From Membranipora membranacea (Eukaryota; Bryozoa; Gymnolaemata; Cheilostomatida; Membraniporidae), in NCBI GenBank assembly GCA_914767715.1, contig OU612069.1:3536001-3600000 (forward strand): a stretch of DNA of 64,000 nucleotides, written 5' to 3'. Each line of letters opens with the position of its first letter. The stretch's first letter is position 1. Shown here piece by piece: positions 6,201 through 54,400 of this stretch. The position numbers and the translations under genes are program-made. The notes under the pieces were generated by a model, which worked only from the letters and a program-made list of their open reading frames with translations, was not told the origin of the DNA and did not search any database.

Positions 6201-9200
6201 ATTTAAGTTATTGGGTAATTGTAGTCGTTTAGAATACAAGACTGACTGGCCTAACAGCAAATTGCTCATCAGTGTCGGTACTAAATCTTGAGTCTGGTGA
6301 GCGGTTTGGAGATGCACCTTGTCTCTCTGACTCTAGATCAAAGTATTTTGTATACAAACCGTAGACATTATTGTTATGATAAATTTTAATTGATGAATGA
6401 TGGAACTGTAATCCTATGTAATCCTATGTAATCCTATATATCAAGTTAGTTCCATAAGTCTGTATATGAGCTCTTGGAGTAGATTAGAGTAACCTTGATC
6501 TAACTAAACATGTCTGCTAGTTGTTTCACTAACTTGATGTTATTTGTTTGTTGTTAATTCAAAATTTAATTAATTTAATTTAATTTTAATACTTTAATCA
6601 AGCTAGAAGTCATTTCCATTTATTGGTCACCAAGGAGAATAATTAATCACAGTCCCTACCATGCATGCAACTCCCTCCTAGCCAGCCAGCAAATATGAAA
6701 TACCCTTTGTATTTCAAAATGAAAACATTGAGTACTATATTCTGCCCTGAGCAAGCAAAACACTGTATCTGTGAAATTTGAAATTTCATGGGAGAGACAA
6801 AAAACAAACAAATGTATGCAAATTACTCAAATTCAGAATTTTGTTTGCCTCACAATTGAGGTTAGGGTGCAGTGTTTTGGCAGCTCAGGGCAGCATTGTC
6901 ATACAATATGCCCCTACATTAGCAGCAAATTATTCACAATCTTCACTTTATGGAACTATATATATGTATATAATTGGGATGAAAATGTTTATGTTTAATG
7001 TTGATGTTTGATTTTACTTGAACAGCTAAGATCCGTCCACTTTCTGAGTTTAATCCCGCATCTCCAGATGGAGTTGAAGGCCATGATGACTCTATCACAG
7101 ATGATGTCAGGTAGGACTTAGGTCTGAGCTATGAACACTATGACATGTATTATGTGTATTACATGTACCTATTACATTACATGTATTATTACTGTAACCT
7201 CCATTTAATTCAAGCCTCTGGAGACCAACACTTAAGTCCTAGTTAAATTGGTCTCGACTAATTAATGTTAGAATGCATTGAGATTTGACTGAAGAGACCA
7301 ACACTTCTTGTATCAATTACCTGGGGTCCTGAGCTATAAAGATTGATTAAGTGACTGCACATTATTATTACTCTCAAAATTCCATAAACTTTGTGTTCTC
7401 CATCCTAGCACCCCTCAAAGAATTAAAGTATTAAAAATAAAATGCCGGTGATGATTATAATACTAGCTATCTCCACTTCTTTTTTTGTCGTCCCCTCAAA
7501 AGACTAGACGGGGAGCATAAATTGACCTTCATATACGTATTTAGTTTTCCCTCTTGTTTTCCCAGACTACAGAACATAGATGAGAAGTTATCCACGCTTG
7601 TGCAGATGTTCTGGTTAGGTGCTTCATTACTGGAGTCTGATTATGAATATGAGTTTCTATTAGCTGTTAATCTGCTCAAACAGGTGAGAAAGTGGTTGAA
7701 TTGAAAAATGAAAAACCATAAAAACATTTTTGATATTTTCAAAAGCTTGTCATTCAATCAATTCAAATGTGCCTTGATGCCCTGCGATTGGAGGAGATAT
7801 ACTGTAAATGAAATGATGAAAATAGATAATTGATCGACTGACATGAGTTGGTCTGGCAAGACTCATTAATCTGCTCATATGTTTCATTGTCATAACTAGT
7901 TGCGTTATTTATTATTAAATGCGATAGGTGCTCAACTACCTGAAGCCGGATAGATTAGAATGCCGAGAAAAAATGGAAAAGACACTGAAACAACTAAAGT
8001 GGCTGAAGTTCCCAGGTCTGCACGGACTTGTGGTCAAGGTAAAGTTCTATTACTCCAGGTCTTCTATATAAGCCCGCTGACAACAACAATTCAATATGTT
8101 ATTGCTAGGATAGATCCTTATGTCGAATTGCTCATTTCGTCCAGGAGTTGTCTGCCCAGTTTCATTAGTTGTCCCCTCTTGTAAGATTTCAATATTGTGA
8201 GCAAATAGCATGCCTGTTTGAGCCAATGCAGCCATTCTGTGAGTCGGATATTGATTGTTTACATTCTTTGTGTAATCTAGAGCTTATCAAATACCGATGT
8301 TCCACGTATTAAGACATAACATAGACTGCCTATACATACCTATATCAAATATTATGTTCCGTTAAACAGGGTCTGACATCAGCACAGACATGTAATGATA
8401 CATGGACACTACTCAGTCAGCTTACGTTGTGTATCAGTGCTCCAGTTATTTCTCACAGTGAAACTCTTGGTTAGTAAAGCTGCAACACTGTTAAATCATA
8501 ACTTGTCAAAAACTCATAGATCTGCGACTGACTGAAACAAAAACTATTATTTTTGCTTGTTTTGTCGTTGAAAATATTTGGAAGGTATCAATACCATACA
8601 CTGATTTTTTGTCAGCTGTAATTGAGTTTTTTCTTTTTTAAATACTGGCATTTTGAGCTTTAACTGCTAGCTATAACCATAGCGGGATAACTCTATGGCT
8701 ATAACTGGCACAAACTAATTTTGTTCGAATCACAACAGGAGTTGTCTTCCCAAAGCGCCAGACAACTCTTATACTTCTCAGCCTTGATGACAGCCTATGT
8801 GGTTATCTTTTAATTCTGTAGGATTCCCAGTGAATGTCATGTGCTTATTGCCTTATATGGTTCAGCACTATGAGGAGCCAACTCCCATTTGTACAGAGGC
8901 AGCTGATAATATTGCTCAGGTATTTATTTGTGGTTTCAGTATTATATATTCGGCTGTTGGTTGGAGTAGAAAAATTCAAATACAGGCCAAAGTATTATGA
9001 TTTCCCTAATGTCATTCTCCATTGGGAGTGGTCTTCAGTCTGTCGATAGCAATTCCCAGATCATCGTCTCCACCAAGGGCTTGTATGACCAGCACTGTGA
9101 ATTGAACTTTGTTATACTACAGAGGGGACAACTACATAATTGGTTTCATATAAAAACTAGCCATCTAATAACTCAGTTAAACTGTTTCATGATAAGATCA

Positions 9201-12200
9201 TTAGTAGTCTCAATAATGAGAGATTCTGCTTCTTATCTCCATCAGATTTTAACATATCACAACTCATGAGGCAATACGCATCGAGAGGCCCGCAGGAAAT
9301 TGAATAGGCCTATTAGCTCCACTTTCTAGGGATGTACTGTCAATTAACATAATCATGAAAATCAAGATTTTATATGCTTTCGTGAATATTTGAGTGTGTG
9401 GTCAAGCTCTAGTTTACCTTTGCGTACCATATGTAAAACACATTTTCGAATTACTCCTTTGTGTCCGGATGTTCATATCTAGTCGTAAAAAGTAAGGCCA
9501 TAGTAATATCATATATATTATATAAGAGGTCATTTCAGAGTTATTCACCCTCTCCCCTGATAATCTTTGGTCACTCAAAAACATCGCACTTTAATTGATC
9601 AATGTGCTCTAAGCTATTTTATTTATCTTCACAGATGGCTCTGGAGATCTCAAACAAACTCGACAACCTTGCAACAGTGATGAGATTATACAGCCGGGGT
9701 ACTTTTGGTAAAGATGCGCATCAGTGGACCAAATGTGTCGTCAAATATCTAACGGATATTTATGAGACTGAACATCTACATGTCATTACTCTGCTGTTAG
9801 AAGTAATTAAATGAATAATAAATGATAATAACTATGCCATGATATACTAACCATCAATACACAATGTTGAATAACATTATCTCCTAGAATAGTAAAGTCC
9901 CCCGTGTCTCTCAGACTTGAAACAGCGAATTTATTGCTAGCCAACTTATCCTCTTCATATACCATTTTATGTTAATCCTTGTGGCTATGATTCTTTCTTG
10001 CTTTGAACAAACAATCATTCTTAACATAATAATTATTATAGCAACGGTGAAATAATTGCCTTGAACCATTAAATTGCAGTTGTTTTACCTGGGAAAAACA
10101 TCCCTTGATTTGTTAAACACATTCCCTCCAGTCCATAAAGATCATATGCCATGTTTTACTTTTTTTTGTTTAAAGGTTTTAGAGCAAGGCACAGCCAGTA
10201 CCCAAGCAGCTATCCTTCTGATATTACACTGTACACTACATTACATAGATATCAACTCTCTACCTAGTCCTACCATGGCCTCAGATCTCATATACACTGT
10301 TTCAAAATTCGTTGAGGTAAGGATATGTATCAACAAAGCTTTATTTATTGATTATGGGAAAGTTTGTTATTGATCTTCAATATGTTGAGCATAAGTGTTT
10401 GCAATGACAACGCATGAGTCTTGTGATAATTAATAAAAACTCACGTCCAATTAAAGTCTCGATACCCTGTGATACCATGTAAGAAACCTTGATGTTGCTT
10501 GTTTTTTTTTGTTTCCGGTATCAGTACGGGTCTACCGACTGGGTCCTGATAGGGCACAGGAGCATTTGAGGTCGGATTTGATAATTGATGATATCTCCAA
10601 AGTGATCTAGCTGGTGTACTTGTTTGCTTAGTCTCTTCTTTATTGGTGATATCCCAGCCCGCAGTTGATAAGACTGCCATATTTGCATGCTGTGAGTTTA
10701 CAGTGTCAGCGTATTCATATAGCTTGTGGTGTGGTCGCTCGATGTTCAATTGCTGGAATCCCATCAAAAAAGGCTGCACCTGGATTTGTCTGAACATTAA
10801 ACATATTTTCCAGGGTCCACATTGGAATGAAGCTCAAAAGATTTTAAAGCTAGCTGTGAAATCTTCCTCCCACCTGATACCAGTCAACAAATCTCCATAC
10901 AACGGTAACGGGCAGTCAGCACATGGTGGTAGTGGTGGGATACAGGGACTGGCCTCACTACATACCCACACCTCATTCGCTGAGGCAGAGATCCTTGTTA
11001 GGAAGGATCTACCAGGTACGTGCGTCAAAGTGCTTCTTGATGGTATTTAGTCTGATGATCATCCAATAGGGGCATTTTTCCACTTTATCGTGGGAGTTAT
11101 AATAGTGTTAATAACCAACTCTGGCCACACTAAACATGTGTAAGATTGTTTTTACTTCCATTTGATTGTGTCTATGCAGCAGAGAACAGCAGTCTGCCAA
11201 CTTAAACAACCCTAGATCAAGTTTGAATTGTTTAGGAAAGCAAAAAACAACCAACCTTTTAGATCAAAGTATTCTCATAGCAATGGACAAAAATACTAAA
11301 TTGACTCGCACAAGGACATTAATGAATGATTATAACCAAATTCAAAGTGGAAAAACTCAGGGTCTAGAGATGTTATCTCCCCTAACACAGATTAACTTAA
11401 AATATCCTTGCCTAGGCCACCTTTGACCATTACTGATTTGTGATAATTTCTGATGATTGTGTAGCAGCCTTGTAACTGTCCTAGGCAATCCAGGCTAGGC
11501 CTACTGTAATACTGTTTGTAGATCATGATTTTAGTGTAAAATTGTAACAGGGGAGATAACATACTCTAGACCCTGGATTTTCACACTATGAAATTGGTTA
11601 TATAATTCAAAAATGTTCTAGTGCGAGTAAATTTTATTTTTTTGTTCATTGCTATGAGAATGTTTTTATATGAACAATGGTTGTTTTCTGCTTACCTAAA
11701 AACTTTAATCCAGATTTGTTTGCAGCTGATCAGTAGACGTGGAGCAACGCAAACTTGATCTATGTTGAACTTTCCCAAACCGAAACCCACCTTAGGCATA
11801 TGAGTTCACTTTCAGCCTGTATGCTATTATTTTCTGACATTTTCGATCATTTTTTTTAGGAAGAACTTTGGACTTCTCATTTGATGTGTCCTCCACACCG
11901 GTGATTGGTGAGAGGTTTCTGCACCCGATGACCGATGAGCGCAACGTACAGCCAAACAGTAAAATCTCTGGTGGAAAACAGAATGGTCCCACACTCAGTA
12001 GTCCTAGCGTCTCCAGCGCAGGTAATAATTTTCAAAACTCCCACAAGAGTCAACTTGACACCACTCTGTCACACAACAACCTCAATTATTTTCTCCCTGT
12101 AAGCCCATTGTAGATTTGTTTGTAAAACAACAACAACAAAAAGCTAATATTGGTCTGTCGATGACTTTTGATATACAACCTGATAATTCTGATATCTAGT

Positions 12201-15200
12201 ACTGTAGCGATTTTGTCATTAATTTGCTAGCCTTGGACGAATTCCCACAAATATCTTTTTTATATTCACCTTCAGATTTTACTCATTTTAATTGACGACG
12301 CTTTGAAATCATTGTTTTTCAACAATTTTATGTAGTATAATTCATAAATAAATATCATATATATTAAAGTACATATCATAGTAAACATAGTCATAAATGT
12401 TGCATTATATATAATATTATATATTATTTTTATTGTTCTCAGATAGTACAGGTAACTGGAGAAGACCTCACCACTCACAGCCTCGTGTTAGAGAGAGATT
12501 TGTGTGTCTACTAGCTACTCTCGGTCAGCGTGTAGGAGTTATCAAAAGTCCCTCTGTAAGTAAACACTCTCAGTCCTTACTAATACAAAATTTGTGAGGT
12601 AACTTAACACAAAGGCCTTAAACAGTTACTCATTTAGTGTGAATAGCTAATATTTCAAGCTGAACTTTCTAGTCAGTTTTAATAATTCATGCCAATGTGC
12701 TGACTCCGATCAGGTTCAATTCGTTCTCAATGGATCTGATTGGCTCCAATTGGCCCGGAGCTAGAACAAGTGTATTCCAATTGCCTGCATTCCAGTTGGT
12801 CCCTTCCACTGGTCACACCGCAGATAAAGGCCTTTGCCTGCAGTGTGACCAGTGGATCGGAAGCAACTCCGAATGCAGCCAAACGGACCAAATGTGGTCT
12901 AGCAGGGAGCCGACACATTGGCTTTGCTTCAGTTAGACTTATGATAACCAGCTCACATCACGGCATTGGCAACATCAGCACATCGTTGTTATTATTCTGC
13001 TTCACACTTCTGAAGGGGAAACTTCTAGACCAATGGGTAATGCATCGTGCATTTAGAAATCCCGCTCATTTGCTACTGTTCAACTAGAACGTTGTTACAA
13101 ATTCATCTGGCATGCCTTGGTGAAATTGTTCACTGGGAGGCCAAAATAACCTTGACTTTGTAACTCGAAAATTGTGACTCTCAGAGAAAATTTATTTAAT
13201 AACAGCATTGCAAATTGAACCAACTTCGCTACTCGCTTCAACAATAGATTACTACAATACAGTAGCAAATGATGCGCGGTAGGCAATGGCTTATCATAGC
13301 AGTCAAAATAATTTCCAAGTTGTGTCCCTATACTATTTTGTGTGGAAATACTAAAAGAAAACCTGGTTATGTGTTTCACAGATTTACCCCAGAAGTTCCC
13401 CAATTGTGTAAAGAGATAGAAAAATTGATACTACTTTCTTTGATGTTGTGGATTTGATTTACTTTATTAAATTTTGATTGCCCTTTAACGATGAAAGTGT
13501 TTCCTGTATCATTATGGTTGTCCCTCTTGCTTTGCTTGCTGTTAGAAGTAGAGTACAGTTGAACTAAAAGGCAGGAATGCCATAACAATGGAAAGCCTAT
13601 TAGGCAGTGGTGTGTAAACAAGAGGTCAAGGGTCATCAAGCAGACAAGACTTGGATGCAGACATTCACAGTTCCATTGTAATTGATCTGGAATAGTAGTT
13701 GGTGGTAAGACACATCATGAGTTCCACATAATATGTCTATGGTTGTGTTGCTTTACTGACATTATATTATCATTGTGTTTTGATTCCAGAACCAAGCTGT
13801 AAGTCATTCATTAGGTTGCATTAGGAGATTAATGTCCTATGTCATTCAATAATAGTGTCCAATAAATTAAGTGAAAACGCAAACGCAATCCATCTAACTT
13901 GGGATGTCATGATTTAAGCATGTAACACCCTTGCTAAAGTTAAAAACTTTTTTCGCAGTAAATCCAGATTATCGGATTGTTTTAAGATTCATGATTTATT
14001 AACGAGTATATTTTTGCCTGCGCATCATTAATTTCAATGTCTATAGAATCTATTACAAATCATTGTATTTAACTAATCGCATATTTATTTTTCAAATCCC
14101 TTCCTTGCTTTGCCTTGGTGGCTTTGCTCTGATGTATGTGAGAATGATTTCAATTCAGTAACTGTTCACGCTGACATCGAGATCACACTATAACCATGTT
14201 TATCTCTGATCATAAGAGCCAATTTAGTTTGAGAACCTCTTGACTCTGACCCCTGACTCTAGAAATCAATCTCGGGTTGTCAGCTCAAATCCCGACTGAA
14301 GGTTCTCTTAGCCCTGTTCACACGGCCAAAACCTGTGGCCGTGTGAACAGGGCTAAGGTTCTCTAGCTACATGGATAAAGTCATGCTCTATCGATCAGGG
14401 GTACACACACTATAGTATATCACATGATCAGTGTGGTAACTGTTAGTAGCTTATGATTTATTGATTTTGGTGTAGTGGATGTGATTGGATGATTTATTGC
14501 GGCTTACATTGAGATGTTAACCTCTTCTGGTGGCGCTGGGTTTCCAAACTTTGCCTCCTTCACATTCTGCCAGCTGTGCATCATGTTCCGCTTATCACTG
14601 ATGCTTCTAATCGTTTCACACAGTGTACAGATTGATCCATAATATCTGCATAGAGTTATTCCTCCTCCTCACTGAATGCAGGCCAGATTTATCAAACTCA
14701 ATTTGGTTAAAGGGGACTCATATCTGATAAGATTCTGAGAACCCCTTGGCCTTGGAAACATCACTATTGGGCTTCCGCTGCAAAGCCTTAGCGAACCTCT
14801 TTTCTTGAGATTGATTGCCTAGAGCTGAGAATTACTAGTTAAAGGTGCTGAGTTTGGGGTTTATTACACTCTCCTTCTCTTTTTTCAGGTTATTTTCAGT
14901 CAAGTGAGTGAGCCTGTTGATAGACAGATGAGTATGTGCTCTAGCAGTGAGGAGACTGGATCCATTACTGATCAAGGTTAGGCCTTATTACGCCACACTT
15001 ACTATTGTTTGGATTCATCTTTTTTGTCCTAGTGTGAGGGTAATGGGTTATCCGATTGGCTGTCTCCCCTTCCAAAAGTCAATCTAACAAATTGGTTATA
15101 TTTTTCCATCGAATGTACAATTCAGCTCCCTCACAAAGTTTTTCAACTTCGATAGCTGTGCCAGCATCAATCGCTTTCAGTACATATCACTTCTACTTGA

Positions 15201-18200
15201 ACCCCAAATTGCCCTCTACTGCTTATTAACTTTCATTATGTTTAATTTGAATCTCAAAATGTTAAATTGACCTGTTTTTAACAGATAAGACACAAGAGGA
15301 CAGTTCGGTATCTGATCAGTTTGGAGATCAGTACTTTAAGGATTTTGACTTCCTTGACAATGAGACTGAGCACATTGATGATGAGGTGGAGGATCAATTT
15401 AACTGGGGAGTGAAGAGGCAGCACAGTATTAATGAGCTGGATATGACTGAGGTTACTAAACAGGATATCATGCAGCGGATGAATGCCAGGAAGGCTGAGA
15501 GAGGAAATACACAGGAGACTGAGAGCAGTGCTAAATCAACTGATGATGAGGGTGGGGATGAACCGGAGGTAAATGGACTCGCTAAAATATTATTTGTTTC
15601 CTACTTAGTTGTGTTCAGATTAAGATATTTCATTAACATGAAGGATAGAGGCCATGTCCATGCAAAGTGCCTTTTATGAAGACATCAATTGTTTGCTGCA
15701 TAGATGCAAGTTTTTATATACTAAATCTATGATACATACAAATATGAATTGAAGAGAGGTAGGCTCAATATGATGGAGATTGCTATGCATTCAGAGCATT
15801 TATGTCATGAGAAACTGTTAATTAATAACAACAAATATCAATACATTCTTTGTAGCAGAGTGCGTCACCAGTTGATGAGGTATTGACAGGGGTGGTACCT
15901 CCCACCACCCTTTCTCTGTCACCAGTTGCGCCTTTATCTCCTCCCAAAGAAGAGGATATGACTATCATAAAGGGAGATATCTCTGATAATACAGAAAGCA
16001 TACACAGTAACTGTAGTGACACTGAGACTGGAGGTTATCTCAACAATACATGTACTAGTAATGGTAGGTATGCATGTGGAGACAACATGGTCCCAGTGAA
16101 ATGGGTGGATTAAAGGGTCTTGTGTAATACAATGATAAAGATATTTGGTTACTGAGAGCCTATGGTAGTTTGGCCTCATCTGTTTGGAGAATCAAGACCT
16201 GTTTTGAGTTATGGGAATGTTGTAGGGACATGCTGCATTTAACCTTCATGATCCCAACATTTGCAATACTACTGCTGCTATCCTAGACAATTAATGTACT
16301 TCTATTCTGAATGTCTTATCAATCTCAATTGCTAAGAGTGCTTAGGTCATGGTTTGGGTCAGGAAATATTAGTCATATAAAGTTTCTAATTTTTCTTCAG
16401 AAATCCAAACATTCCTGAGTTTGACTGGTGATGAGGTGGAGGAGAATTGGACCAATCACGTGACACTTCTTATGACATCATCAGCTGCAGACAACTCCAC
16501 AGGAAGTGATGACGCCGGAGAAGGCGTGACGCTGGTGAACATGTACACTCTGTTCAACAGACTCTTCAAGGTAAGGATGGATTAGTTTTAATTTCAATTA
16601 ATTTTCTGCGTGAAGTCTTATCAGAGTTATTGATTATCGAAGGGTTGAAGATTAATCGAAACGTTGATCACATACTTATAGTATCTCTGATAAGGCCCAT
16701 TACTTATTTCAGTTTTTAATTTGATTCTCTTTTTTGGCATCAGCATCATCATCAATTACAAAATGTGTTCCATGACCTTGTGATCTTTAACCTTAAAAAT
16801 TATTTATTCATGTTGTACAAAAAAAATTGTTGATTGCATTTTACCAACAGATATGCATTAGTCTTCTCTGGTGTTACGGGGTTGTTGTGTATACAATTTC
16901 ACATGTCCCCATGTGATGTAGCTCGTGCAGACCTGATGGCAATTTGATAAAAAATTTCCAATATGCTGTTAGAGTGAATTATTTCATGTTTTACAGGAAA
17001 AGAAGAGGAAACTATCCAACCTGACAAAGGAGGTCTGCTTCTATTTATCTAAAACTCCGAGCCTTAGGAGCATTTCATCTCAATTTATGAAAACGCTGGA
17101 GATACTTATCACTCAGGCTGAGTGCCCGTTCACATATATCGACACTGAAACTGTGAGTGATCTTAATTGTTGGTAAAACTATGAATACGCTAGATATTAT
17201 TAAACTCAGAATCCCCCCAAAAAACAATCATATCATACTTCTATATTCAAAACTATTTCACCGAAAAGTTCTTTCATCTGTTAAAGAGGTTGTGCAGAAC
17301 CAGGTTCTTGGTATCATTCTAGAGTCCTCAGTCTAATTTAGAATACTGCTCCAACTCAATAATGAGCCTGTGGCCCAGGTTCAACTAATTTACTTGAGAT
17401 GAGAAAGTACTAAAAAGGTACTATTTTGTATTATGCAGAAAACTCTAGAATGATACCAAAAATGTGATTCTGACACAATTACTTTAACCGATAGTAACCC
17501 AGGGATGTAGGAAGTGTGACATAGCACCATGATGACTTAACACGCCTCAGCTCTTGATTAAGTAACCATGTACACAATTATGGTTTATTATGATTTCAGG
17601 CCTCTAGTGTACGGATGACAGACACACAGAAGTTTACTCTGCTCGAGTTACATGAAGCTTATCTAACTTATCTGGACAGGAAAGAGCTGGCGTTAGAGGT
17701 CAGTAACTTGGATTACAGTGTTGTCTGATAGATTGATATACTGATTGAGACTGCGCTCAAAATAGCAAATGTTAAATCCTTGAAGTTTGATCAACTGAAG
17801 CCAATATTGTTAGTCAAAGTGACTATGCACTAAATTTGACTAGAAAATTGAAAGAATGATATTTGTTATACCCATCTATTTTTCTTTTATCTTTAAATTA
17901 TATGAAATGTGTATACTTGTAACCTTGAAGGAACCATGGAAACTGTTTTTGATTGCAAAAAAGGCAGAATTAAGACTTTTCCCCACAAAATTATATTGAA
18001 ATAATTATCATAATTTTGTGAGGGAACAACTCTCACCTTTGTCTGCTACAAATATCAAAAGGCATTCCCCTAGAGGACAACCAGTATTGTATAGACAAAC
18101 GAGCTAGCTTTACTCCTCTTGTGAATGAACTAAATGGTTGATTATTTACAGAGTTTGGAGAACATTAAAAGTTCTATAAAGATGCAGTCGCTGGGAACTC

Positions 18201-24259: not shown

Positions 24260-27200
24260 ATGATTCCTGCTAGGAAACTAAAGTTATCGATTATAACTGT
24301 ACTCGCTGTGTCATTAATCGCTACGGCTTTTATCTGGAATGCTAAAACCTTCTCTAACGGAGCTGAAGTACGACTAGAACATCAACTAGACTTAGAGATC
24401 AGGTGAGAACTGAAGTACGACTAGAACATCATCTAGACTTAGAGATAAGGTGAGAACTGAAGTACGCCTAGAACATCATCTAGACTTAGAGATAAGGTGA
24501 GAACTGAGTACGACTAGAACATCATCTATACTTAGAGATCAGGTGAGAACTGAAGTACGACTAGAACATCATCTAGACTTAGAGATAAGGTGAGAACTGA
24601 AGTACGACTAGAACATCATCTAGACTTAGAGATAAGGTGAGAACTGAAGTACGACTAGAACATCATCTAGACTTAGAGATAAGGTGAGAACTGAAGTACG
24701 ACTAGAACATCATCTAGACTTAGAGATCAGGTGAGAACTGAAGTACGACTAGAACATCATCTAGACTTAGAGATAAGGTGAGAACTGAAGTACGACTAGA
24801 ACATCATCTAGACTTAGAGATAAGGTGAGAACTGAAGTACGACTAGAACATCATCTAGACTTAGAGATAAGGTGAGAACTGAAGTACGACTAGAACATCA
24901 TCTAGACTTAGAGATAAGGTGAGAACTGAAGTACGACTAGAACATCATCTATACTTAGAGATAAGGTGAGAACTGAAGTACGACTAGAACATCATCTAGA
25001 CTTAGAGATACGGTGAGAACTGAAGTACGACTAGAACATCATCTAGACTTAGAGATAAGGTGAGAACTGAAGTACGACTAGAACATCATCTAGACTTAGA
25101 GATCAGGTGAGAACTGAAGTACGACTAGAACATCATCTAGACTTAGAGATAAGGTGAGAACTGAAGTACGACTAGAACATCATCTAGACTTAGAGATAAG
25201 GTGAGAACTGAAGTACGACTAGAACATCATCTAGACTTAGAGATAAGGTGAGAACTGAAGTACGACTAGAACATCATCTAGACTTAGAGATAAGGTGAGA
25301 ACTGAAGTACGACTAGAACATCATCTAGACTTAGAGATAAGGTGAGAACTGAAGTACGACTAGAACATCATCTAGACTTAGAGATCAGGTGAGAACTGAA
25401 GTACGACTAGAACATCATCTAGACTTAGAGATCAGGTGAGAACTGAAGTACGACTAGAACATCATCTAGACTTAGAGATAAGGTGAGAACTGAAGTACGA
25501 CTAGAACATCATCTAGACTTAGAGATAAGGTGAGAACTGAAGTACGACTAGAACATCATCTAGACTTAGAGATAAGGTGAGAACTGAAGTACGACTAGAA
25601 CATCATCTAGACTTAGAGATAAGGTGAGAACTGAAGTACGACTAGAACATCATCTAGACTTAGAGATCAGGTGAGAACTGAAGTACGACTAGAACATCAT
25701 CTAGACTTAGAGATAAGGTGAGAACTGAAGTACGACTAGAACATCATCTAGACTTAGAGATAAGGTGAGAACTGAAGTACGACTAGAACATCATCTATAC
25801 TTAGAGATAAGGTGAGAACTGAAGTACGACTAGAACATCATCTAGACTTAGAGATACGGTGAGAACTGAAGTACGACTAGAACATCATCTAGACTTAGAG
25901 ATAAGGTGAGAACTGAAGTACGACTAGAACATCATCTAGACTTAGAGATCAGGTGAGAACTGAAGTACGACTAGAACATCATCTAGACTTAGAGATAAGG
26001 TGAGAACTGAAGTACGACTAGAACATCATCTAGACTTAGAGATAAGGTGAGAACTGAAGTACGACTAAAACATCATCTAGACTTAGAGATAAGGTGAGAA
26101 CTGAAGTACGACTAGAACATCATCTAGACTTAGAGATAAGGTGAGAACTGAAGTACGACTAGAACATCATCTAGACTTAGAGATAAGGTGAGAACTGAAG
26201 TACGACTAGAACATCATCTAGACTTAGAGATCAGGTGAGAACTGAAGTACGACTAGAACATCATCTAGACTTAGAGATCAGGTGAGAACTGAAGTACGAC
26301 TAGAACATCATCTAGACTTAGAGATAAGGTGAGAACTGAAGTACGACTAGAACATCATCTAGACTTAGAGATAAGGTGAGAACTGAAGTACGACTAGAAC
26401 ATCATCTAGACTTAGAGATAAGGTGAGAACTGAAGTACGACTAGAACATCATCTAGACTTAGAGATCAGGTGAGAACTGAAGTACGACTAGAACATCATC
26501 TAGACTTAGAGATAAGGTGAGAACTGAAGTACGACTAGAACATCATCTACACTTAGAGATCAGGTGAGAACTGAAGTACGACTAGAACATCATCTAGACT
26601 TAGAGATCAGGTGAGAACTGAAGTACGACTAGAACATCATCTACACTTAGAGATCAGGTGAGAACTGAAGTACGACTAGAACATCATCTAGACTTAGAGA
26701 TAAGGTGAGAACTGAAGTACGACTAGAACATCATCTAGACTTAGAGATAAGGTGAGAACTGAAGTACGACTAGAACATCATCTAGACTTAGAGATAAGGT
26801 GAGAACTGAAGTACGACTAGAACATCATCTAGACTTAGAGATAAGGTGAGAACTGAAGTACGACTAGAACATCATCTAGACTTAGAGATAAGGTGAGAAC
26901 TGAAGTACGACTAGAACATCATCTAGACTTAGAGATAAGGTGAGAACTGAAGTACAACTAGAACATCAACTAGACTTAGAGATCAGGTGAGATCTGAAGT
27001 ACGACTAGAACATCATCTAGACTTAGAGATCAGGTGAGAACTGAAGTACGACTAGAACATCATCTAGACTTAGAGATAAGGTGAGAACTGAAGTACGACT
27101 AGAACATCATCTAGACTTAGAGATAAGGTGAGAACTGAAGTACGACTAGAACATCATCTAGACTTAGAGATAAGGTGAGAACTGAAGTACGACTAGAACA

Positions 27201-30200
27201 TCATCTAGACTTAGAGATAAGGTGAGAACTGAAGTACGACTAGAACATCATCTAGACTTAGAGATAAGGTGAGAACTGAAGTACGACTAGAACATCGTCT
27301 AGACTTAGAGATAAGGTGAGAACTGAAGTACGACTAGAACATCATCTAGACTTAGAGATCAGGTGAGAACTGAAGTACGACTAGAACATCATCTAGACTT
27401 AGAGATAAGGTGAGAACTGAAGTACGACTAGAACATCATCTACACTTAGAGATCAGGTGAGAACTGAAGTACGACTAGAACATCATCTAGACTTAGAGAT
27501 CAGGTGAGAACTGAAGTACGACTAGAACATCATCTAGACTTAGAGATAAGGTGAGAACTGAAGTACGACTAGAACATCATCTAGACTTAGAGATAAGGTG
27601 AAAACTGAAGTATGACTAGAACATTATCTAGACTTAGAGATAAGGTGAGAACTGAAGTACGACTAGAACATCAACTAGACTTAGAGATCAGGTGAGAACT
27701 GAAGTACGACTAGAACATCATCTAGACTTAGAGATCAGGTGAGATCTGAAGTACGACTAGAACATCATCTAGACTTAGAGATCAGGTGAGAACTGAAGTA
27801 TGACTACAACATCATCTAGACTTAGAGATCAGGTGAGAACTGAAGTACGACTAGAACATCAACTAGACTTAGAGATAAGGTGAGAACGGGAGGTGTTTGT
27901 GAGTGTTAACGTTCTCTGCCTTTTTACGTCTCCTGTTTCTGTATGATCATATTATAACTTTTTTCGGTGGATATGCGGGCATTCGGGCTGGGAGATGCTC
28001 TAAAAATCCACTCCTCGTAAAAATCTTGTTTTGCAAAGCTTTCAAATTATTATGTTGTCTTGTCTTCAATGGGGGATCACACAACAAGATTGTATTATCA
28101 AAGTCGAGGTGCCCATAGGACTCAAAGGCCCTGGAGAGCAAGTTTGCTCTTGTATCTAAAATTTATCAAAATTGCATGACTGACAAATTAAGTCGACATG
28201 GTATTTTTGGCTTCCTGGATGACAGTTGGTTTATCCAGAGTGTGAGTGATAATGTCTTGGGAAATTTCCTAATGATGTGAATGTGAATTTAAATGGATTT
28301 CACTATACCAAGTTTGTTTCATTTTCTTATATTTGGAGTTGCTCCCCTCCTCTGGTCATGACGCACTGGGAGGGGAGCTGCTCCCCTCCCAGTGCATCAT
28401 GACCAGAGGAGGGGGAGCAACTCCTAGTATGCAGGCAAACTGGGTCAAACTTGCTTTAGGTTTGCACCACAACCAGGACAAGAGGGCTCATCGGATAATC
28501 TTAGTATAGTCAGGTGACACCTGAAATGTCCATGACCTGTGATTGTGTTGATTATTATTATGATGTTCCTCACGGGAATGAAATTGGGTCATGGTTTTCT
28601 AAACTCATTCTGTTGAAAATCTTTTTTAAACAAGGTTTTTTACAATTAGTTGCTAAGCGATACAGTGACTAGAATCCTAACCATTGTTTGTGCAGTCTTA
28701 TCTGCGCGATGAGAGAATATAACAATTACTTGGAAGCTGCTAACTAAAGTTAACCAAATTTGTATTCTCTTCTCAGAAATCCTCTGAGTGACCTACTTCG
28801 CTCATGGAGCGGAACTGAGAAGGACAATGGGAAAATAGATCAAAATAAAACCTCAGACATTGCTAGAGTGGTCTCTGATCCAGAAGAGAAACAACATGAC
28901 ATACTACGGTCAAAGGTCACTGAAGCAACCAAAGACAGGAAATTCAAAAAGAAGAAAGTTTACTTTTTGAAGATGCACAAGTCAGCCAGCTCAACAGTGG
29001 CCAGTATTCTCAGCTACTGGGGTCTGAGAAATAACTTGACATTTGCCCTTCCTAAAAGTAAGTTTAAATGGACTCTCTGTGTTGTACCAAAATTCTTACA
29101 TTTCTTTTTTGAAAGACAGATCTCAACCATTCATTTAAAGCCGCTGATTTGAATTTTTCACTCCAGATTTTATACATACCTCAGTGTTTAAAACTTTATT
29201 ATTGTTACCTATAAAGCCACACTCAGAAATATAATCTTTTTTGATAATTTCATGCTGCAATTTAGACAGCAGTAAACCATTTTTTAGTTTATTTTTGTTG
29301 TTTTTATATTCATAATTGTCACTAACTGTTATTTGAATGTTAAATAGGCAACATCAAAGTCAATTATCAGCAGTTATAGAGTTAATTCTTTCGTCTAGAG
29401 TTGGTTATTCCATTCTTTTTTTATCTACTGAATTTACATACGACAATGGTTTTGTTTGCAGAGCTGCATCAGTTTTGGCCACATAAGTTTGTGAGATCAA
29501 AGATGATGTCACTTGGAGGACGAGAGCCAGATATATTCATGTCACATGTCATAGACTCAGATTCAATAGACGAACTGATGCCTCGACACGAGACGGTCTA
29601 CTTCACAGCAGTCAGGGAGCCGGTAACTCTACTAGAGTCTGCTTTTAACTACTTCGCAACGGGTGAGCAACAGAGTAGACAAGCCTTAGATCCATATTGT
29701 TTTGGATAAAAAAGCAAGTTGGTATAGAAGGCCACAATGTTCTATCTCAGTCTGTAGACTGAGATTGAGTCTGTAGGTAGGTTAAAGTAAACCTTATAGT
29801 CAGCTGACTACTGGCTGAGCTACCTCCTACTTTGGGAAGATGGAGATGCTGTTTTGAATATTTTGTTGAGGGAGTTGATTCTACAGATCAGTTGCTGACC
29901 ATGGGTAGCACACAATTCATAGAGACCAAATATTGAACAACTGGTGGATGAACCCATTGGCCGTTTATTAGTGTATTGCTGCGTATAATACAGCGTTGGC
30001 AATTACGGATAATCCTACACCATAAATATGCACAACCTCAAAACAAAATATTGAAATCTGCTGTTATTTTGATAAAAGAATTTCTTAAAGAAAGGCATTT
30101 TGTGACTAACATCAATGTGCAAGTCTGTTTTGGTTTGGGTAAATTGAAGAGTTAAGTGGAATTATATCTGAGTTACCTTTTCTTTGCACAGTAGTGGATA

Positions 30201-33200
30201 ACTCCCCATAAAATAATTTATATTTCACATCCTTTTTTTTCAGGTCAATGCACTGGTTACGATTTTAACACTTTCTTCCACAAAGGACATCATATAAGAC
30301 GGCCAGAAAGTAAACACTGTGAATTTACAGATTATCTACACAACATCATGGCATTTGATCTCGGCCTAACTGTAAGTATGAACTCATCCTGTTTTCAACA
30401 TATACATGATCCATAGACTTAATAATAAACCTAGACAGGACACCATATACAGCTGAATTGTGGGGCGACGTAACGTCGTTAGATGGTGCAGAAACAATGA
30501 TGCTTTCATTGATTCACTGTCCATGATCCAGGTTTTTTGTCGTTAACTCGATAAATTTTGATCGGGTTTTGAATTTTAAAATTGCTTTATGATCACCAGC
30601 ATCTTGTCATCAACTTGAAGTTGTTTCTCAATCAAAACAATTTTTTTGCCTAATATTAGTATCAACCTGTTCTGGACAAGCTGCTAAATCTATTGTAATT
30701 TTCAAATTCCGAAATCAAAATTCTACACCTTCCAATGTCGTTACATCGCCCAAAATTAAATGCATCAGTGCCTCGATGCTAATGCACCATATAGTGTCCT
30801 GTCTAAGTTTATCATTAAGTCTATGGTAGGATCTTATCTCATCCGAAATGACCATCAACTGCAGTATACAAACCAGAGTACCTCCAAGTGCGCATGAAAA
30901 CTGAACAAAATACAATGCCCCCTTTGCCGAGCCGGACAAACTATAGCATGCACACCCCACCTATACCGATGCTCTAGTCTCTGTTTGTTACAATGTCGCT
31001 TTATTATTATCTGACAGCCCAATGACTCTGATAACGCGAGTAGAGTTCACGACCTCATACAGAGAGCAGATAAGAGATTTGACCTTGTCCTGCTTACGGA
31101 GAGGCTCGATGAATGTCTCATATTACTCAGAGGTCAGTCAGAGGTCATCTCCTCTCATATTAAACTGAGCACATCATTCTGTGAGATTGATTATGGCCAG
31201 GTGTCATTAGAATGATGGTTCAGTAAATCATATATTTTAACAAACAATCATTTTGATTTTGTTGCAAAGACCAATGAGTAACTGCTATTCCCTTCTTTAA
31301 CAGAGAAGTGTTTATATCGAATGTTTTCTCTAGCACTATTACATTCATCTGAACCCATTACCTCGCATCTATTTTTCTCGGTTGAAAAGGTGTTATGAAA
31401 GTGACAGTTCCAATTTTGTTATAATGCTTTTTGGATAGTTGTCCTCTCTTTTGATCCGTGGAGATAATTTCTAACCAAACCCAGTTATGTGAGGTTTTTA
31501 ACTGTCTAGCAAAATTATTGTCTCTGTGCTCAAATTTTGAGATACTGTAGATTGGTCACGCTATTTTTTATTGTTTTGGAAAACTGGTTGTATACATGGT
31601 ATTCAATTTTATAACAGATTTGATTGGTGCAACAACAGAGGATATTGCAGTGCTGAAAAACAACTTTAGAAAATCAGAAGCTAAATCTCCGATCATGGCT
31701 GAGACTAGGGAGATTATAGAGAGTTGGAACTGGGCGGATAAAATCATATATGAACATTTCAAAAATAAAACTGAAGCTCTGCTCGAAGAAAAGAGAGAAT
31801 ATATACAAGCAGGTTAGTCTGAGCACACAGATGCTTAGGTTAGTCTGAGAACACAGATACTTAGGTTAGTCTGAGTACACCAATACATTGGTTAGTCTGA
31901 GTACACCAATGCTTTGGTAAGTCTCTGCATATAGATAATTATGTTTTTTCTTTCTATACACTAGATCTTACTTGACTGTCATGTTTAACAGGCCCCCTTG
32001 CCCGCGGTTGCAGGCTATTTTTTTTTTAAGAGGCAGAGGGGGATCTTTATACTGCTTGCAAGCCGAAAAAGGCCTTGTGTATTTATGGTCCTGATCTAAA
32101 CAGACCTGGTTAGGTCGAATGGCTCGACAGTGCCAAATCAGATATGACCTCTTGCGCCGTAAATTGAACCTGGATCATTTGATCACAAGTCCTTACCCTT
32201 AACCGTCAGACCATTTATGTTACTCTATGTTGACAAAAGGGAAGCTTCATCTGAGCACACAAATACTTAGGTTAGTCTGAGCACACAAATACTTAGGTTA
32301 GTCTGAGCACACAGACACTTAGGTTAGTCTGAGTACACAGATACTTAGGTTAGTCTGAGTACACATACACTAAGGTTAGTCTGAGCACACAAATACTTAG
32401 GTTAGTCTGAGCACACAGATACTTAGGTTAGTCTGAGCACACAGATACTTTGGTTAGTCTGAGTACACAGATACTTAGGTTAGTCTGAGCACACAGATAC
32501 TTAGGTCAGTCTGAGCACACAGATACTTGGGTTAGTCTGAGCACACAGATACTTTGGTTAGTCTGAGCACACAGACACTTAGGTTAGTTTGAGTACACAG
32601 ATACTCAGGTTAGTCTGAGTACACATACACTAAGGTTAGTCTGAGCACACAAATACTTTGGTTAGTCTGAGCACACAGATACTCAGGTTAGTCTGAGTAC
32701 AAAGATACTTAGGTTAGTCTGAGCACACAGATACTTAGGTCAGTCTGAGCACACAGATACTTTGGTTAGTCTGAGCACACAGACACTTAGGTTAGTCTGA
32801 GTACACATACACTAAGGTTAGTCTGAGCACACAAATACTTAGGTTAGTCTGAGTACACAGATACTTAGGTTAGTCTGAGTACACAGATACTTAGGTTAGT
32901 CTGAGTACACAGATAATCAGGTTAGTCTCAGTACACAGATACTTAGGGTAGTCTGAGTACACAGATACTTAGGTTAGTCTGAGCACACAGATACTCAGGT
33001 TAGTCTGAGTACACAGAAACTTAGGGTAGTCTGAGTACACAGATATTGATGTTAGTCTGAGCACACAGATACTTAGGGTAGTCTGAGCACACAGGTACTC
33101 AAGTTAGTCTGAGCACACAGACACTAAGGTTAGCTCTATAAGCCAACAGCATGGCTTTTAAAATTCTCATTTTTCTGATTCTCAGAACTCATCAAATTGA

Positions 33201-33415
33201 AAACAGCTAGAAGTTTGATACAGCAGCTGTGTATAGCGGGAGAAAGTGAGAAAAGTGGACTCGTTAAGGGAATGAAAGTATATGGACGTGGCACTCTAGG
33301 CTATGTTCTTACGGAGGAGGGCCAGAACAACTCCATGTGTGTTATGAAATCTTCTCCAGAGACAGCAATAGTAGGAATGATTCGACAGAAAATGGCCGCC
33401 CTCCAAACAGTCTGA
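24260..33415 (+). CDS. Galactose-3-O-sulfotransferase (Gal3ST family), complete seven-exon gene
   Basis: Gal3ST enzymes transfer sulfate from PAPS to the 3-OH of galactose on glycolipids and glycans in the Golgi. Exons: 24260-24402, 28777-29057, 29462-29662, 30244-30371, 31018-31132, 31618-31812, 33186-33415; total 1,293 nt, 430 residues, the usual family length. The start is chosen because it gives a type II signal anchor: short basic tail (PARKLK), then a hydrophobic segment at about residues 9-26. The 5'-phosphosulfate-binding motif is FLKMHKSASST at about 111-121. The 3'-phosphate-binding region is YFTAVREPVTLLESAFNYF at about 188-206. Later family-like stretches are FDLVLLTERLDE and SWNWADKIIYEHF. 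Introns 1 and 6 are almost filled by minisatellites starting at their donors. Galactosylceramide and glycan acceptors cannot be told apart from sequence alone. Confidence 0.88.
24365..27887 (+). repeat. 47-bp minisatellite, about 75 units, starting inside exon 1 and spanning its splice donor
   Basis: The unit is 47 bp: 38 bp matching the 3' end of coding exon 1 (from gaagtacgactagaac to gagatcag or gagataag) plus 9 bp of intron start (gtgagaact). The span equals 75 units less 2 nt, and one unit with a 1-nt deletion was seen near 24,496. The first unit is the real exon end; all others are intronic copies that each carry the AG|GTGAGAAC donor. Most internal units read catcatctag, while the exon and a few late units (near 26,965, 27,670, 27,860) read catcaactag. 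Rare variants (ctacactt, ctatactt) recur in blocks, as expected from array turnover. Confidence 0.97.
28335..28424. repeat. 90-bp near-perfect GC-rich palindrome in sulfotransferase intron 1
   Basis: Arms of about 45 bp run from ggagttgctcccctcctctg to cagaggagggggagcaactc with almost no spacer. The centre is gggaggggagctgctcccctccc. Only one or two mismatches are seen. It stands out from the AT-rich surroundings and could extrude as a cruciform or fold into an RNA hairpin. Confidence 0.9.
29775..29835 (-). mobile_element. Short SINE head fragment in sulfotransferase intron 3
   Basis: The reverse complement contains gtaggaggtagctcagcca, matching the head of the SINEs at 42,300 and 48,597. 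Only the tRNA-like head is evident. Confidence 0.35.
31813..33134 (+). repeat. 26-bp minisatellite, about 38 units, starting exactly at the intron 6 donor
   Basis: The unit gttagtctgagcacacagat + acttag is 26 bp. Four units follow the exon directly (31,813-31,916), then an insertion, then about 34 units from 32,249 to 33,134. The intron's own 5' splice site (GCAG|GTTAGTCTGAG) is the start of unit 1, and each later unit ends in AG before the next GTTAGT, repeating a good donor. Variants include gtacac for gcacac and ctcagg or tttgg at the unit end. The array stops about 50 bp before the acceptor at 33,185. Confidence 0.96.
31985..32235 (-). mobile_element. Probable tRNA-derived SINE inserted in the 26-bp array
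   Basis: The 26-bp array is interrupted between about 31,917 and 32,248. In reverse complement the insert reads gtctgacggttaagggtaag followed by a B-box-like ccaggttcaattt, resembling a tRNA head. The array resumes afterwards in the same orientation, so the insertion came after array growth. An internal poly-T tract is present. Confidence 0.5.
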
Positions 33416-35094
33416 GGTGTCCTCACTCGCCCACAACATAAGATGCTGCTCCTGGAAATATGTTGAGTCTAGTTTGAAAATCAAACTCCTTGTTTTATTC
33501 AACGAACACTGGAAGTCGAAGATGATGCTTAAGGTTACTGTTTATGTGTGATGCCAGTGCGCTTGCACGAAGAGTTACCTCCTTGGTTTGCAGGCTTGAA
33601 CAGCATTATTCATAGAGGTAGTTTATATAGATATCGATTCCATAAAACCTCCCAAGAATCAGTAAGAGTTCGGAGAATGGCAATAATTTCAATAGAGCTG
33701 TTAATCAAAAGAGTGACTCAGAGCCTCAGAGCCTTATATTGTTATGAAGGCTTGAGCTTGAGCTTGGCCAGAGGGATTACAAAGGGGGAATTGTCTCCTC
33801 TTTACTAAGCTTGAATAATCGCTAAATTTCTTCCGTTTTTGAGAGCTTTGACTCGTAACATTCATTTTTTTTGGTCCAGCTGCACTACTGTGAACCTTTT
33901 TTAATATTCAATATTGATCTCAATGTATTATTTTATTCAAAATTGCTCAAGAACAAACTTCCAGCATTAATGAATCATTTAAGCGAAAGCTTTCCATATT
34001 TCCAATGTTTACCAATAGTTCTTTACATATGTATAGGTATTACTGGCTTTCGTGTCTGTGAGATAATGTGGTATATTTCAATGTCCTGAAAGGGTCTCAA
34101 TCTTTTCATGCTAAACTCTGATAATATGACTTTCGTGGTTTTTGAGAACTTTTTTCCAATAGGTGAGAGTGAAAAAAAAGATACAATGTATTTTATTCTC
34201 TCAATCTCACCGAGGACTTTTCTACTACAATAGAACCATTGTCCAGGTCTTGTTGTTTGATGTATAATCATTTCTCAGGAGATAAATGGAATGTACTCCA
34301 AAAGCTTAATTACTTGGGAAGCTAACGGTTAAAACAGTTTGTCCTGTTTACTCTTTTTAGTTTAGGGTTTCGGTGGTTTAAGTGCTCGAACGCTGCCTGT
34401 ATTGCTAGTAATGGCATTGCGGTTATCAGCCATGGGATGTAGCTGATTATGTTATGCAACCACCAGCAAACCTTAACTAGAATCTCTGAAAATACATGGC
34501 TTACCATTGTTTGGGTTGATCATCGGCGCAATCATTCATTTTTGGTTAAAGCACCACATAGTTTTTGTCAATGCTTTGCTTCGCACAATGCAACATTCAG
34601 AAATTCCAAGTTATATATGGTAAATGATAATACATGTGTATGTAATACAGTCTTTGGATCCAAAATTCTCAAATACACAGAGACTAGCTAGCTAGCTAGA
34701 GTCTGAACCCTGAATGTTCTTATCCATGATTATCATTATGATGATTATGCCAATAAAGTTTAAAAAAATGATGTCGCCAAATCCCATAGTTATCTTCTCC
34801 TGTTACATAAAAGTGACGTCACATGAAAAAAGACTTTTATTACAGTGAGTAGGAGTTACTTTCTCACAACACTAGAAAAGACAACCTCTTATACTGTACC
34901 TGGACTCATAAGTGTTCTTGTACCACATTGCAGGTGAAAAGAGATATTTTTCTGGGGCAGAACTTGATGATCTCACATTCGAAGACTGAATATGTAAGCT
35001 CTTTATTGATGAGGTGTTCACACAACAAAACTGTGAGTCACCTCAGTACAGACAATTCAGTAAGACATTATTACGGTATGGTTAGACTGACTTT
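33416..35094. other. Intergenic region downstream of the sulfotransferase gene
   Basis: No exon is supported. It probably includes the sulfotransferase 3' UTR; the clearest AATAAA is at about 34,752, far from the stop, and the interval before it has no alternative exact hexamer that I noticed. A short (ctag)n tract lies near 34,686. Confidence 0.45.
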
Positions 35095-51400: not shown

Positions 51401-54400
51401 GCCAAGACAATTAGATCTTCTTTTGTGGGTTTGAGCAACCCTTAATGATATAGTGGTCGTCAGAAACTGACATGAGGTTAGGATGAAAAATACAGCAGAA
51501 ACTATGCTGTGCTTATGGGGTGCATAATTAGAGTCGCTAATAGAATTCTGTGGAATAACACCTTTAATAGCGTGTTTCCTTAACACGTTACATTGTTCTT
51601 ACCAATAATTCATACCTTCACAAACTTGCAGAAACAATGCTGCATCTTACTTCATACATTGACAGCAAATACAATTTTCTTCTATTCATAAGTTAACCAC
51701 AAACAGACATTTAACTCGAGATGTATGCCCTGCTACAATGGAGCAGGTTATTCATCTTGTTACGACACGAGGGATGGAAGTATTAAGTGTGTGTGCATAA
51801 TCGGCTACGAAGGACCAAATTGTGAATCCCGTAAGTTCTCTATGCCGTTACAGCAGCTAACCAAACTCAGCCTGTAGGCGGACAGGAAACTCAATAGTCA
51901 TTACCCATAATAACCAGGCAAATGTAATATGATCATAGCAACCTAGTTCAAAGGTCAATGGTCATAGCAACATAGGTCAAAGGTCACAGGTCATGGGTCA
52001 CAGTAACATCATCTCTGGTATCCGGTGATAACGATGAGCCTGACCCCCCTCTAAAGTTAGATATCACTATACATATGTTGGCAAAGAATCCAATTAAATA
52101 ATTTCACGAGACTGGATTATGCACCTTGACAAAGTTTTATACCGGTCCATTTGCCAGTGAATTGTATAAAAAATCTGTCTCAGATAACCCTAGTCTCTCA
52201 GATTGCCCCAGTCTCTCGGATAGCCCCAGTCTCTAAGTAAGCCCCAGTCTCTCAGATAGCACCAGTATCTAAGTCAGCCCTAGTCTCTCAGATAGCCCCA
52301 ATGTCTCAGATAACCCTCATCTCTCAGATAGCCCCAGTCTCTCAGATAGCCCTAGTCCCTCAGATAGCCCCAGTCTCTCAGATAGCCCCAGTCTCTAAGT
52401 TAGCCCCAGTCTCTAAGTTAGCCCCAGTATCTCAGTCAGCCCCAGTATCTCAGTCAGCCCTAGTCTCTCAGATAGCCAAAGTCCCTCAGATCATTGAATA
52501 TATGGGCTTTTCAGAGACGGTCCTTCCCTCCACTGGTATGCCATTTATATGTATCCACTGTGACTGAATGAATATATACTATCCGCTTCATTATTTATTA
52601 CTGTCAATATAATTTAGCTCTTTATCACTAACTGCCTTTGGCTCACAATGAGGTTTTCTTTACAGTGATATGCCGCCCAAATAAATGTAATGGCCATGGA
52701 GTATGCTCATACGATTATTCCAATACGGGTAAATGCGTGTGTAACAATGGCTGGAGAGGTGAAACATGCAATATCCAGTAAGATTTACAGAGTATCATAA
52801 ACCATTTCTGTATTAAAATATAACTACCTATATAATGTTAACGGATTTTTTTTTTTCTGAAAAAAATAATTATTTGTTGCAAATTTATACATACACTCAT
52901 TATGTCAAGCCTGTAGTTCTAGGGGAGGCAGGGACACTCTGCCTCGCCTAGAAGGCTTAATAGAGTGGCCAAAAAATGCTATATTTGTCTATTCCAGGTC
53001 AGAATCAGCTCATTTTGGACTTCCATTTACACCATTGAAACGCTCCAGACTTAATTTTTTACAGCAGGGGCTTACAATGTCCAATATGTGGCCACTTCAT
53101 ACCCTCAGGGTATTTCCCCCCCCCCCTGTTGAACCCTCAAACGTCGCAAACGTCAAAACGTCGCAATCTAGCGTTCCACTAATCCGTTCTGCAATCCAAA
53201 AAACGTCGCAACGAAGGGTTTTTAAAACGTCGCAAACCCACAAATGTCGCAATTTTTTAAACGTCGCAATAGCTTGAACCCACTAACGTCGCAAATGTTG
53301 AAATATACTGTCATGTTTGATATAGGCTATGCTTAAAGTTGTTAAGAGGCTTTTAAACTACTTGAAATACCATAAATGTTAAATCATTTATGCATGAATC
53401 CTTTATCCATTTATCTCTTTATGACTTACCCTTTATCTACTGAATAAGGAATTGTTACATCATTCCCAAGATGCAACTTTACGGTTTTATGCTATGATAA
53501 TAAAACCTCAACCGGATACCATAGGAACCATTAGCAATAGCATACAATAGGATGCGATATTACACCTTGCATTGCGTAACGGCAATTGTATTTTCATCAC
53601 TAGAATTATATGCAGTTTGTAAACTCAAATCCTGGGTTATGGACATGAGACCTTGACAGTGGGTCAATGATAGTGCAGTTGAAAATTTACAGAATTTAAT
53701 ATCGCTTTGTGACCCAGCGGCTTATTGTTAATGGCCATGGTTGTATAATAAATGGGTTTCCCTAAAAAATTTAAGTCAAATTATAATTAGCCTCAATATA
53801 CTTTGGTAATTCCATAGATATGCATTAGGTAAATTCGCACCCTTGGTATCTATATTAAATAATCATTAATCATATTCATGGGGAAATCCAACTGAATAGA
53901 TTTTATGATTAGGTATACGGTTTTTCAATGATTGTGACATGAAACTTAGAATTATCTCCTCATTGGTAATAGGGAGCCAACTTGAATTCAAGTTGGATTC
54001 AGTTGGATTTCCCCATGAAAATGATTATGATTAATGATTATTTAATATAGATACCAAGGGCGCGAAGTTACCTATTAGGGAGCCGTTCACCTCTTAAATT
54101 TTATTGAATTTGTTATTGTATACTCTCTGAAAGAGAAGTCTTCAAAGTGACACATCCTGCAAGACCATGGCAAACAGTGGCCTTTCTTGACAAGCATTGC
54201 TGGAAGGAGAGGGGAACCCCTCCGACAAAGCTTGTCAAGACAGGGTAAGGGACCAGCAGATGAAATTTTTTGAGATATCGTGATTTGCTTGATTAGTAAT
54301 TCAATCAATTAAAAAAAATTGCAGCTCAACTATGCCTGGGTACCCAAAGACTATTATCCTACCTCTAAATATTCAACCTGCTTTTGCCTATCTAGCCAGC

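Follow-up and report, generated by a model that had tools for sequence, protein, structure and literature searches.

A 75-unit minisatellite built on the first splice donor of a sulfotransferase gene in the bryozoan Membranipora membranacea

How does splicing cope with an intron that opens with dozens of copies of its own 5' splice site? The question is raised by a galactose-3-O-sulfotransferase gene in a 64,000-nucleotide stretch of the genome of the bryozoan Membranipora membranacea (C5:3536001-3600000; this whole stretch is the window, in whose coordinates positions are given below), in which a minisatellite with a unit of 47 base pairs (bp) starts within the end of coding exon 1 and runs on into intron 1. 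The answer that we consider likely is that the array is a largely neutral mirage, that is, a minisatellite-like duplication of an exon-intron boundary, which would have arisen after gene duplication, grown to 75 units and been tolerated since the first donor is the one used. The features concerned are the following (here and below, a slash in a motif marks the exon-intron boundary).

24260..24402, plus strand: coding exon 1, with the ATG, an apparent N-terminal membrane anchor (by eye) and an end in phase 2 (gene model; same exon in the paralogue)
24403..24408, plus strand: authentic 5' splice site of intron 1, CAG/GTGAGA
24363..27887, plus strand: 47-bp minisatellite of 75 units, of which unit 1 is common to exon 1 (Tandem Repeats Finder, TRF, and unit parsing)

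Structure of the array in intron 1

For positions 24363-27887, TRF reports a period of 47, 75.0 copies, 97% matches and a score of 6721, with a period and length far above chance, and parsing of the units recovered 75 donor motifs, in agreement with the roughly 75 copies at the end of exon 1 that had been proposed in an earlier note on this DNA. Successive motifs are spaced by 47 bp in 73 of 74 cases and by 46 bp in the remaining one, which indicates that no array unit was skipped in parsing. In the phase chosen by TRF, 40 bp of unit 1 belong to the end of coding exon 1 and 7 bp to the start of intron 1; the previously described unit of 38 bp of exon and 9 bp of intron is the same unit with the cut drawn elsewhere. 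There are 16 unit variants, the most frequent of which accounts for 42 of the 75 units. The nine bases around the donor read AAG/GTGAGA in 49 units, CAG/GTGAGA in 23 (the real donor and 22 further copies), ACG/GTGAGA in two and AAG/GTGAAA in one, and the GT is intact in all 75. The claim of some 74 additional donors identical or nearly identical to the real one is thus borne out by 22 CAG/GTGAGA, 49 AAG/GTGAGA and three weaker sites. The further description of these sites as equal holds for the 22 copies that match the real donor but not for the 52 of 75 units with a derived A at position -3, to which we return below.

The arrangement of the variants carries traces of the history of the array. 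Units 11-26 reappear, with some mismatches, as units 29-44, a run of 16 units at an offset of 18 units with a weighted score that was reached by none of 2000 shuffles of the unit order, and this recurrence may point indirectly to length instability; a simpler test based on run length gave no significant block structure (454 of 2000 shuffles). Eight of the ten unit types present in one copy sit in units 1-4 and 63-75, a pattern that is expected if array ends escape homogenisation. Variant types number three in the nine donor positions versus 12 in the other 38 positions of the unit, so variation in the copied donors is about as frequent as in the rest of the unit, and these positions appear to be under no special constraint.

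The gene, its paralogue and protein constraint

Exon 1 is joined to six further exons, all from the gene model.

28777..29057, plus strand: exon 2, with the acceptor ttctcag, the last base of which is 28776
29462..29662, plus strand: exon 3
30244..30371, plus strand: exon 4
31018..31132, plus strand: exon 5
31618..31812, plus strand: exon 6
33186..33417, plus strand: exon 7, including the stop codon

Joined, the seven exons encode a protein of 430 residues with no inner stop that matches PF06990, galactose-3-O-sulfotransferase (E 2.3e-49, 168.8 bits, cut-off 27), and the start of which resembles, by eye, a Golgi enzyme's membrane anchor. The earliest in-frame ATG of exon 2 falls inside the core motif LKMHKSASST, so the start of the protein must derive from upstream, and the phase-2 end of exon 1 fits.

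Independent support for the model comes from a paralogue located 3 Mb away (minus strand, around C5:577,900), in which all seven exons are recognisable. Its exon 1 ends ...GAGATCAG/GTGAGAGCTG, with donor and phase unchanged but in a single copy, its exon 2 corresponds to that of the gene, and introns 1 and 6 occupy the same places. Because these elements recur there, the gene model is supported independently of the window and, taken with the phase match to exon 2 and the constraint on the protein, both exon 1 and the donor that ends it are very probably genuine. Intron 6 of the paralogue starts GTTAGTCTTAGCACC and holds no array, and the seven tandem repeats that TRF reports in the 27-kb paralogue stretch are all located away from the exon 1 and exon 6 donors. 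Both arrays of the gene (the second one, in intron 6, is described below) are therefore most simply younger than the gene duplication, the alternative being that the paralogue lost them. The presence of introns 1 and 6 at the same places in the paralogue also rules out that these introns were gained by tandem duplication.

Comparison of the two genes over aligned blocks (396 of 430 codons) gave 0.097 nonsynonymous substitutions per site (dN) and 0.500 synonymous ones (dS), a dN/dS of 0.19, which shows that the gene overall has been under constraint. Productive splicing from donor 1 must consequently occur, at least often enough to sustain the protein, unless function was lost recently. Constraint appears weak at the N-terminal end, with a dN/dS of 0.45 for exon 1 alone and 1.03 for residues 48-78 alone.

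When the 430 residues were searched against predicted proteins, 24 matches with a top identity of 35% were obtained, the top named relative being a Bugula neritina protein (35% identity), both among the 7998 scored candidates that shared most words with the query. The first 141 residues used as a query had no match among the predicted proteins, and no solved structure matched the protein at E up to 1. Exon 2 of the paralogue has features of its own: it contains a coding 18-bp repeat (HDQQGS, about eight copies; L011:380-529 and neighbourhood, minus strand), it seems to be split by an extra intron, and its donor is crossed by a 25-bp duplication.

Reading outcomes of the later donors

The earlier note had pointed to an in-frame TGA directly past the first donor, and this proved correct. 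Translated from the ATG of the gene, transcripts spliced at donors 2, 3, 4, 11 and 75 all stop at codon 49 and, given the position of the TGA directly behind donor 1, the same stop applies to the remaining later donors. From the gene's own ATG, the predicted enzyme is obtained from donor 1 only. One qualification is needed: units 70 and 74 carry derived ATGs (at 27612 and 27800, respectively) from which the frame is open into exon 2 via donors 71 and 75, and the products would be in frame but devoid of the membrane anchor.

A detached copy of the array on another chromosome

A search of the genome (339,339,785 bases in 18 contigs), in which the best candidates were scored, yielded at least one further copy of the array, on C8 at about 23,172,232-23,174,250 (L009:6232-8250), with 43.0 copies and 95% matches. 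This array starts in mid-unit, includes no exon 1 sequence beyond the unit and is accompanied by about 28 bp of the 3' flank in intron 1. Matches between the protein of the PF06990 gene and the 20 kb around the C8 array were at chance level (E of 3 or more), the array itself aside. The existence of the array without the gene indicates that the repeat can persist and move independently, growing as DNA.

In the 41 C8 units that remain when the first and the last are left out, the donor reads CAG/GTGAGA in 31, CAG/AAGAGA in six, TAG/GTGAGA in three and CATGTGAGA in one, the six units with a destroyed donor having CAGAAGAGA in its place. Loss of the GT thus differs between six of 41 units on C8 and none of 75 in the gene (Fisher P 0.0015). 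The six GT-less units share one variant, however, and so probably go back to one event rather than to independent losses. At position -3, the C8 units carry C (38) or T (3) in 41 of 41 cases and the paralogue carries C, as does the real donor of the gene; the A found in 52 of the 75 units of the gene is therefore most likely derived.

A second donor-anchored array in intron 6

Two further duplications in the gene lie at donors.

31811..31924, plus strand: first block of a 26-bp minisatellite, beginning at the exon 6 donor (TRF)
31925..32249, plus strand: spacer of 325 bp dividing the 26-bp array, with an 81% match to the background stretch L016 over 69 bp
32250..33133, plus strand: second block of the 26-bp minisatellite, 34 copies (TRF)
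31127..31147, plus strand: 11-bp duplication of 1.9 copies over the exon 5 donor, present in a diverged form in the paralogue

The 26-bp array begins two bases 5' of the exon 6 donor and spans 39 unit positions, with GT in 36 and AG/GT in 27. Its commonest donor is TAG/GTTAGT (16 of 39), the real one being CAG/GTTAGT. The spacer may be an inserted dispersed repeat, judging from its match to one background stretch.

Does the gene attract such duplications? Its donor-anchoring score, computed with one pre-filter fewer than the background, is at least 50 at two of six donors and at least 10 at three of six, versus 46 and 83, respectively, of 3224 background GT sites; the latter were drawn from 16 of 18 stretches, with L014 and L019, which hold large satellites, excluded, which lowers the background. 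For the five remaining donors, the chance of one array is about 7%. Since it was the first array that prompted this comparison, the apparent richness of this gene in donor-anchored duplications is suggestive only. A general tendency of the tandem repeats of this genome to hold donors was rejected: eighteen 10-kb stretches of one chromosome held 18 arrays with a period of at least 10 and at least three copies, and when these were scored with a donor matrix only one of the 18 reached at least 8 bits, a 335-bp satellite.

Other repeats and genes were seen along the way. The entire 10 kb of L019 (C5:8500001-8510000) consists of the 335-bp satellite, with 99% matches. At 52178-52491 of the window, an 18-bp minisatellite of 17.4 copies appears, by eye, to be intronic to an EGF-like gene, and it does not adjoin a donor. 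Upstream of the sulfotransferase gene, at 7441-15679 of the window, are exons of a Furry gene, with matches to MOR2-PAG1_C and Fry_C in four of the ten open reading frames scanned.

How the gene may be spliced

We propose that, after the split from the paralogue, a 47-bp segment that takes in the 3' end of exon 1 together with the intron 1 donor was tandemly duplicated, and that the array then grew to 75 units, probably by unequal exchange. The 5'-most donor, adjoining the capped first exon, would be spliced to give the enzyme, and the other 74, being intronic, would mostly be skipped, probably because the cap-proximal donor is committed early, with the array still under transcription. Some mis-splicing to later donors probably takes place and would be lost as stop-containing transcripts. 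Under this scenario, the array would mainly reflect neutral DNA turnover.

Several observations weigh against such a simple view. Predictions of local folding place donor 1 last in accessibility among the 75, for which reason a structure-based choice of the first donor was also rejected. According to PMC6002489, when two donors are comparable it is the intron-proximal one that is favoured, for a reason that is not known. The presence of the 26-bp array at another donor of this gene hints at a donor-specific factor, and the retention of GT in all gene units, set against its loss on C8, might hint at constraint on the donors.

The best of the alternatives, although in our estimation an unlikely one, is that the array tunes output, with transcripts from later donors, carrying the TGA at codon 49, being degraded and with unit number or U1 supply setting expression. 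That donor 1 alone is productive from the ATG of the gene, that 22 extra donors match the real one exactly and that no unit has lost its GT would all suit this idea, and the published intron-proximal preference (PMC6002489) would shift use downstream. The donor positions of the copies nevertheless show no constraint, the paralogue lives without an array and a gene-free copy exists on C8; moreover, genes with amphioxus mirages are reported to be apparently spliced normally (PMC3087553). Tuning through unproductive transcripts or U1 binding, as put forward in the earlier note, stands unsupported rather than refuted.

A slightly less probable version, which we offer as a speculation, is that the gene copes with 75 competing donors because first-exon donor choice in this animal obeys transcription order instead of the proximal rule, and that the array serves as an intronic element that binds U1, with decoys weakened at -3 and unit number setting the productive share.

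The weakening of decoys might also have been selected for in its own right, with the derived A at -3 spreading among the copies in the gene and not into the real donor; this we find improbable. In its favour are the A in 52 of 75 units versus C in the real donor and the paralogue, the poorer modelled pairing with U1 (-9.6 kcal/mol with A versus -11.1 with C, for a U1 start that may differ in this species) and, in intron 6, TAG at 21 of 39 positions versus CAG in the real donor. A single mutation hitchhiking on unit turnover would give an identical picture, however, 22 strong copies persist, several of them toward the 3' end, and the case is built from two arrays only.

Two further alternatives are very improbable. 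Starts inside the array (units 70 and 74, spliced via donors 71 and 75) would have frames open into exon 2 and would yield an anchorless enzyme, as might befit the relatives P0002 and P0003, which as listed lack an N-terminal anchor (by eye), but only two of 75 units carry such ATGs, and the paralogue and P0001 have an anchor-like start (by eye). As for an assembly artefact, with one or a few units at the true locus, an array of 3.5 kb is short relative to HiFi reads. Tandem arrays are prone to misassembly, but the 16 unit types in their internal order, the separate array on C8 and the 66-fold HiFi coverage given in the genome note (PMC10290214), which also lists a deposited RNA-seq run (ERR6464929), a HiFi run (ERR6406215) and an alternate haplotype (GCA_914767555.1), all argue for a genuine array.

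Three other roles were considered and discarded. Recursive splicing or the creation of small new exons from the units finds no acceptor-like tract, with none of the 508 AGs in the array having at least 11 pyrimidines among the 15 bases upstream by a simple pyrimidine count. Protection from early polyadenylation is not indicated, since the intron 1 array contains no AATAAA or ATTAAA. For a known non-coding RNA, neither an Rfam family at gathering score nor a tRNA gene (ARAGORN) was detected in the window.

Known relatives and significance

Minisatellite-like duplications of exon-intron boundaries, termed mirages, have been described in the amphioxus genes for Adh3, globin and troponin C (PMC3087553). 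In these mirages, splice signals are repeated and splicing is reported to be undisturbed (PMC3087553, PMC3902484), with reverse transcription-polymerase chain reaction suggesting normal splicing (PMC3087553), mirage length varies at Adh3 and BflGb6, and similar duplications occur in PGBD5 (PMC3087553, PMC3902484). The arrays described here resemble mirages in that the unit spans an exon-intron boundary, from 2 bp before the donor in the case of intron 6, and in that the copies hold the splice signal. They differ in occurring in Bryozoa and not in a cephalochordate, which is the place of first description and not part of the mechanism, and in being two in one gene, with a detached copy on another chromosome. 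The two BflGb6 haplotypes have six and three units, compared to 75 here, and whereas the BflGb6 mirage repeats the acceptor side, the BflGb9 one repeats an exon's 3' boundary.

Tandem duplication of AG/GT sequence as a route to intron gain is discussed in PMC3087553 and, for human tandem repeats, in PMC2812944. As in that process, exon ends with splice signals have been duplicated here, but the intron was already present, as the paralogue attests, no new intron was formed and the units contain no acceptor-like tract. Intronic minisatellites also feature in an earthworm study (PMC12783039), and alternative donors in another report (PMC4222953). A further comparison can be drawn with human IFI6 (6-16, G1P3), in which a minisatellite with multiple splice donors was reportedly described by Turri in 1995 (cited in PMC2915984 and PMC2572611). 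The IFI6 unit is said to be 12 bp long and to occur in copies that are in frame, with several donors giving protein. Unlike those of IFI6, the later donors of the sulfotransferase gene lead to a stop. Among literature titles combining bryozoan and minisatellite, in a search mostly without subscription journals, we were unable to find any on such arrays.

Boundary minisatellites are thus already known in kind, and what is notable here is the size, the two arrays in one gene and the moved copy. The locus extends boundary minisatellites from amphioxus to a bryozoan, with one of them having moved to another chromosome, and offers a natural test of how the spliceosome chooses among many near-identical donors, each in its own exon context.

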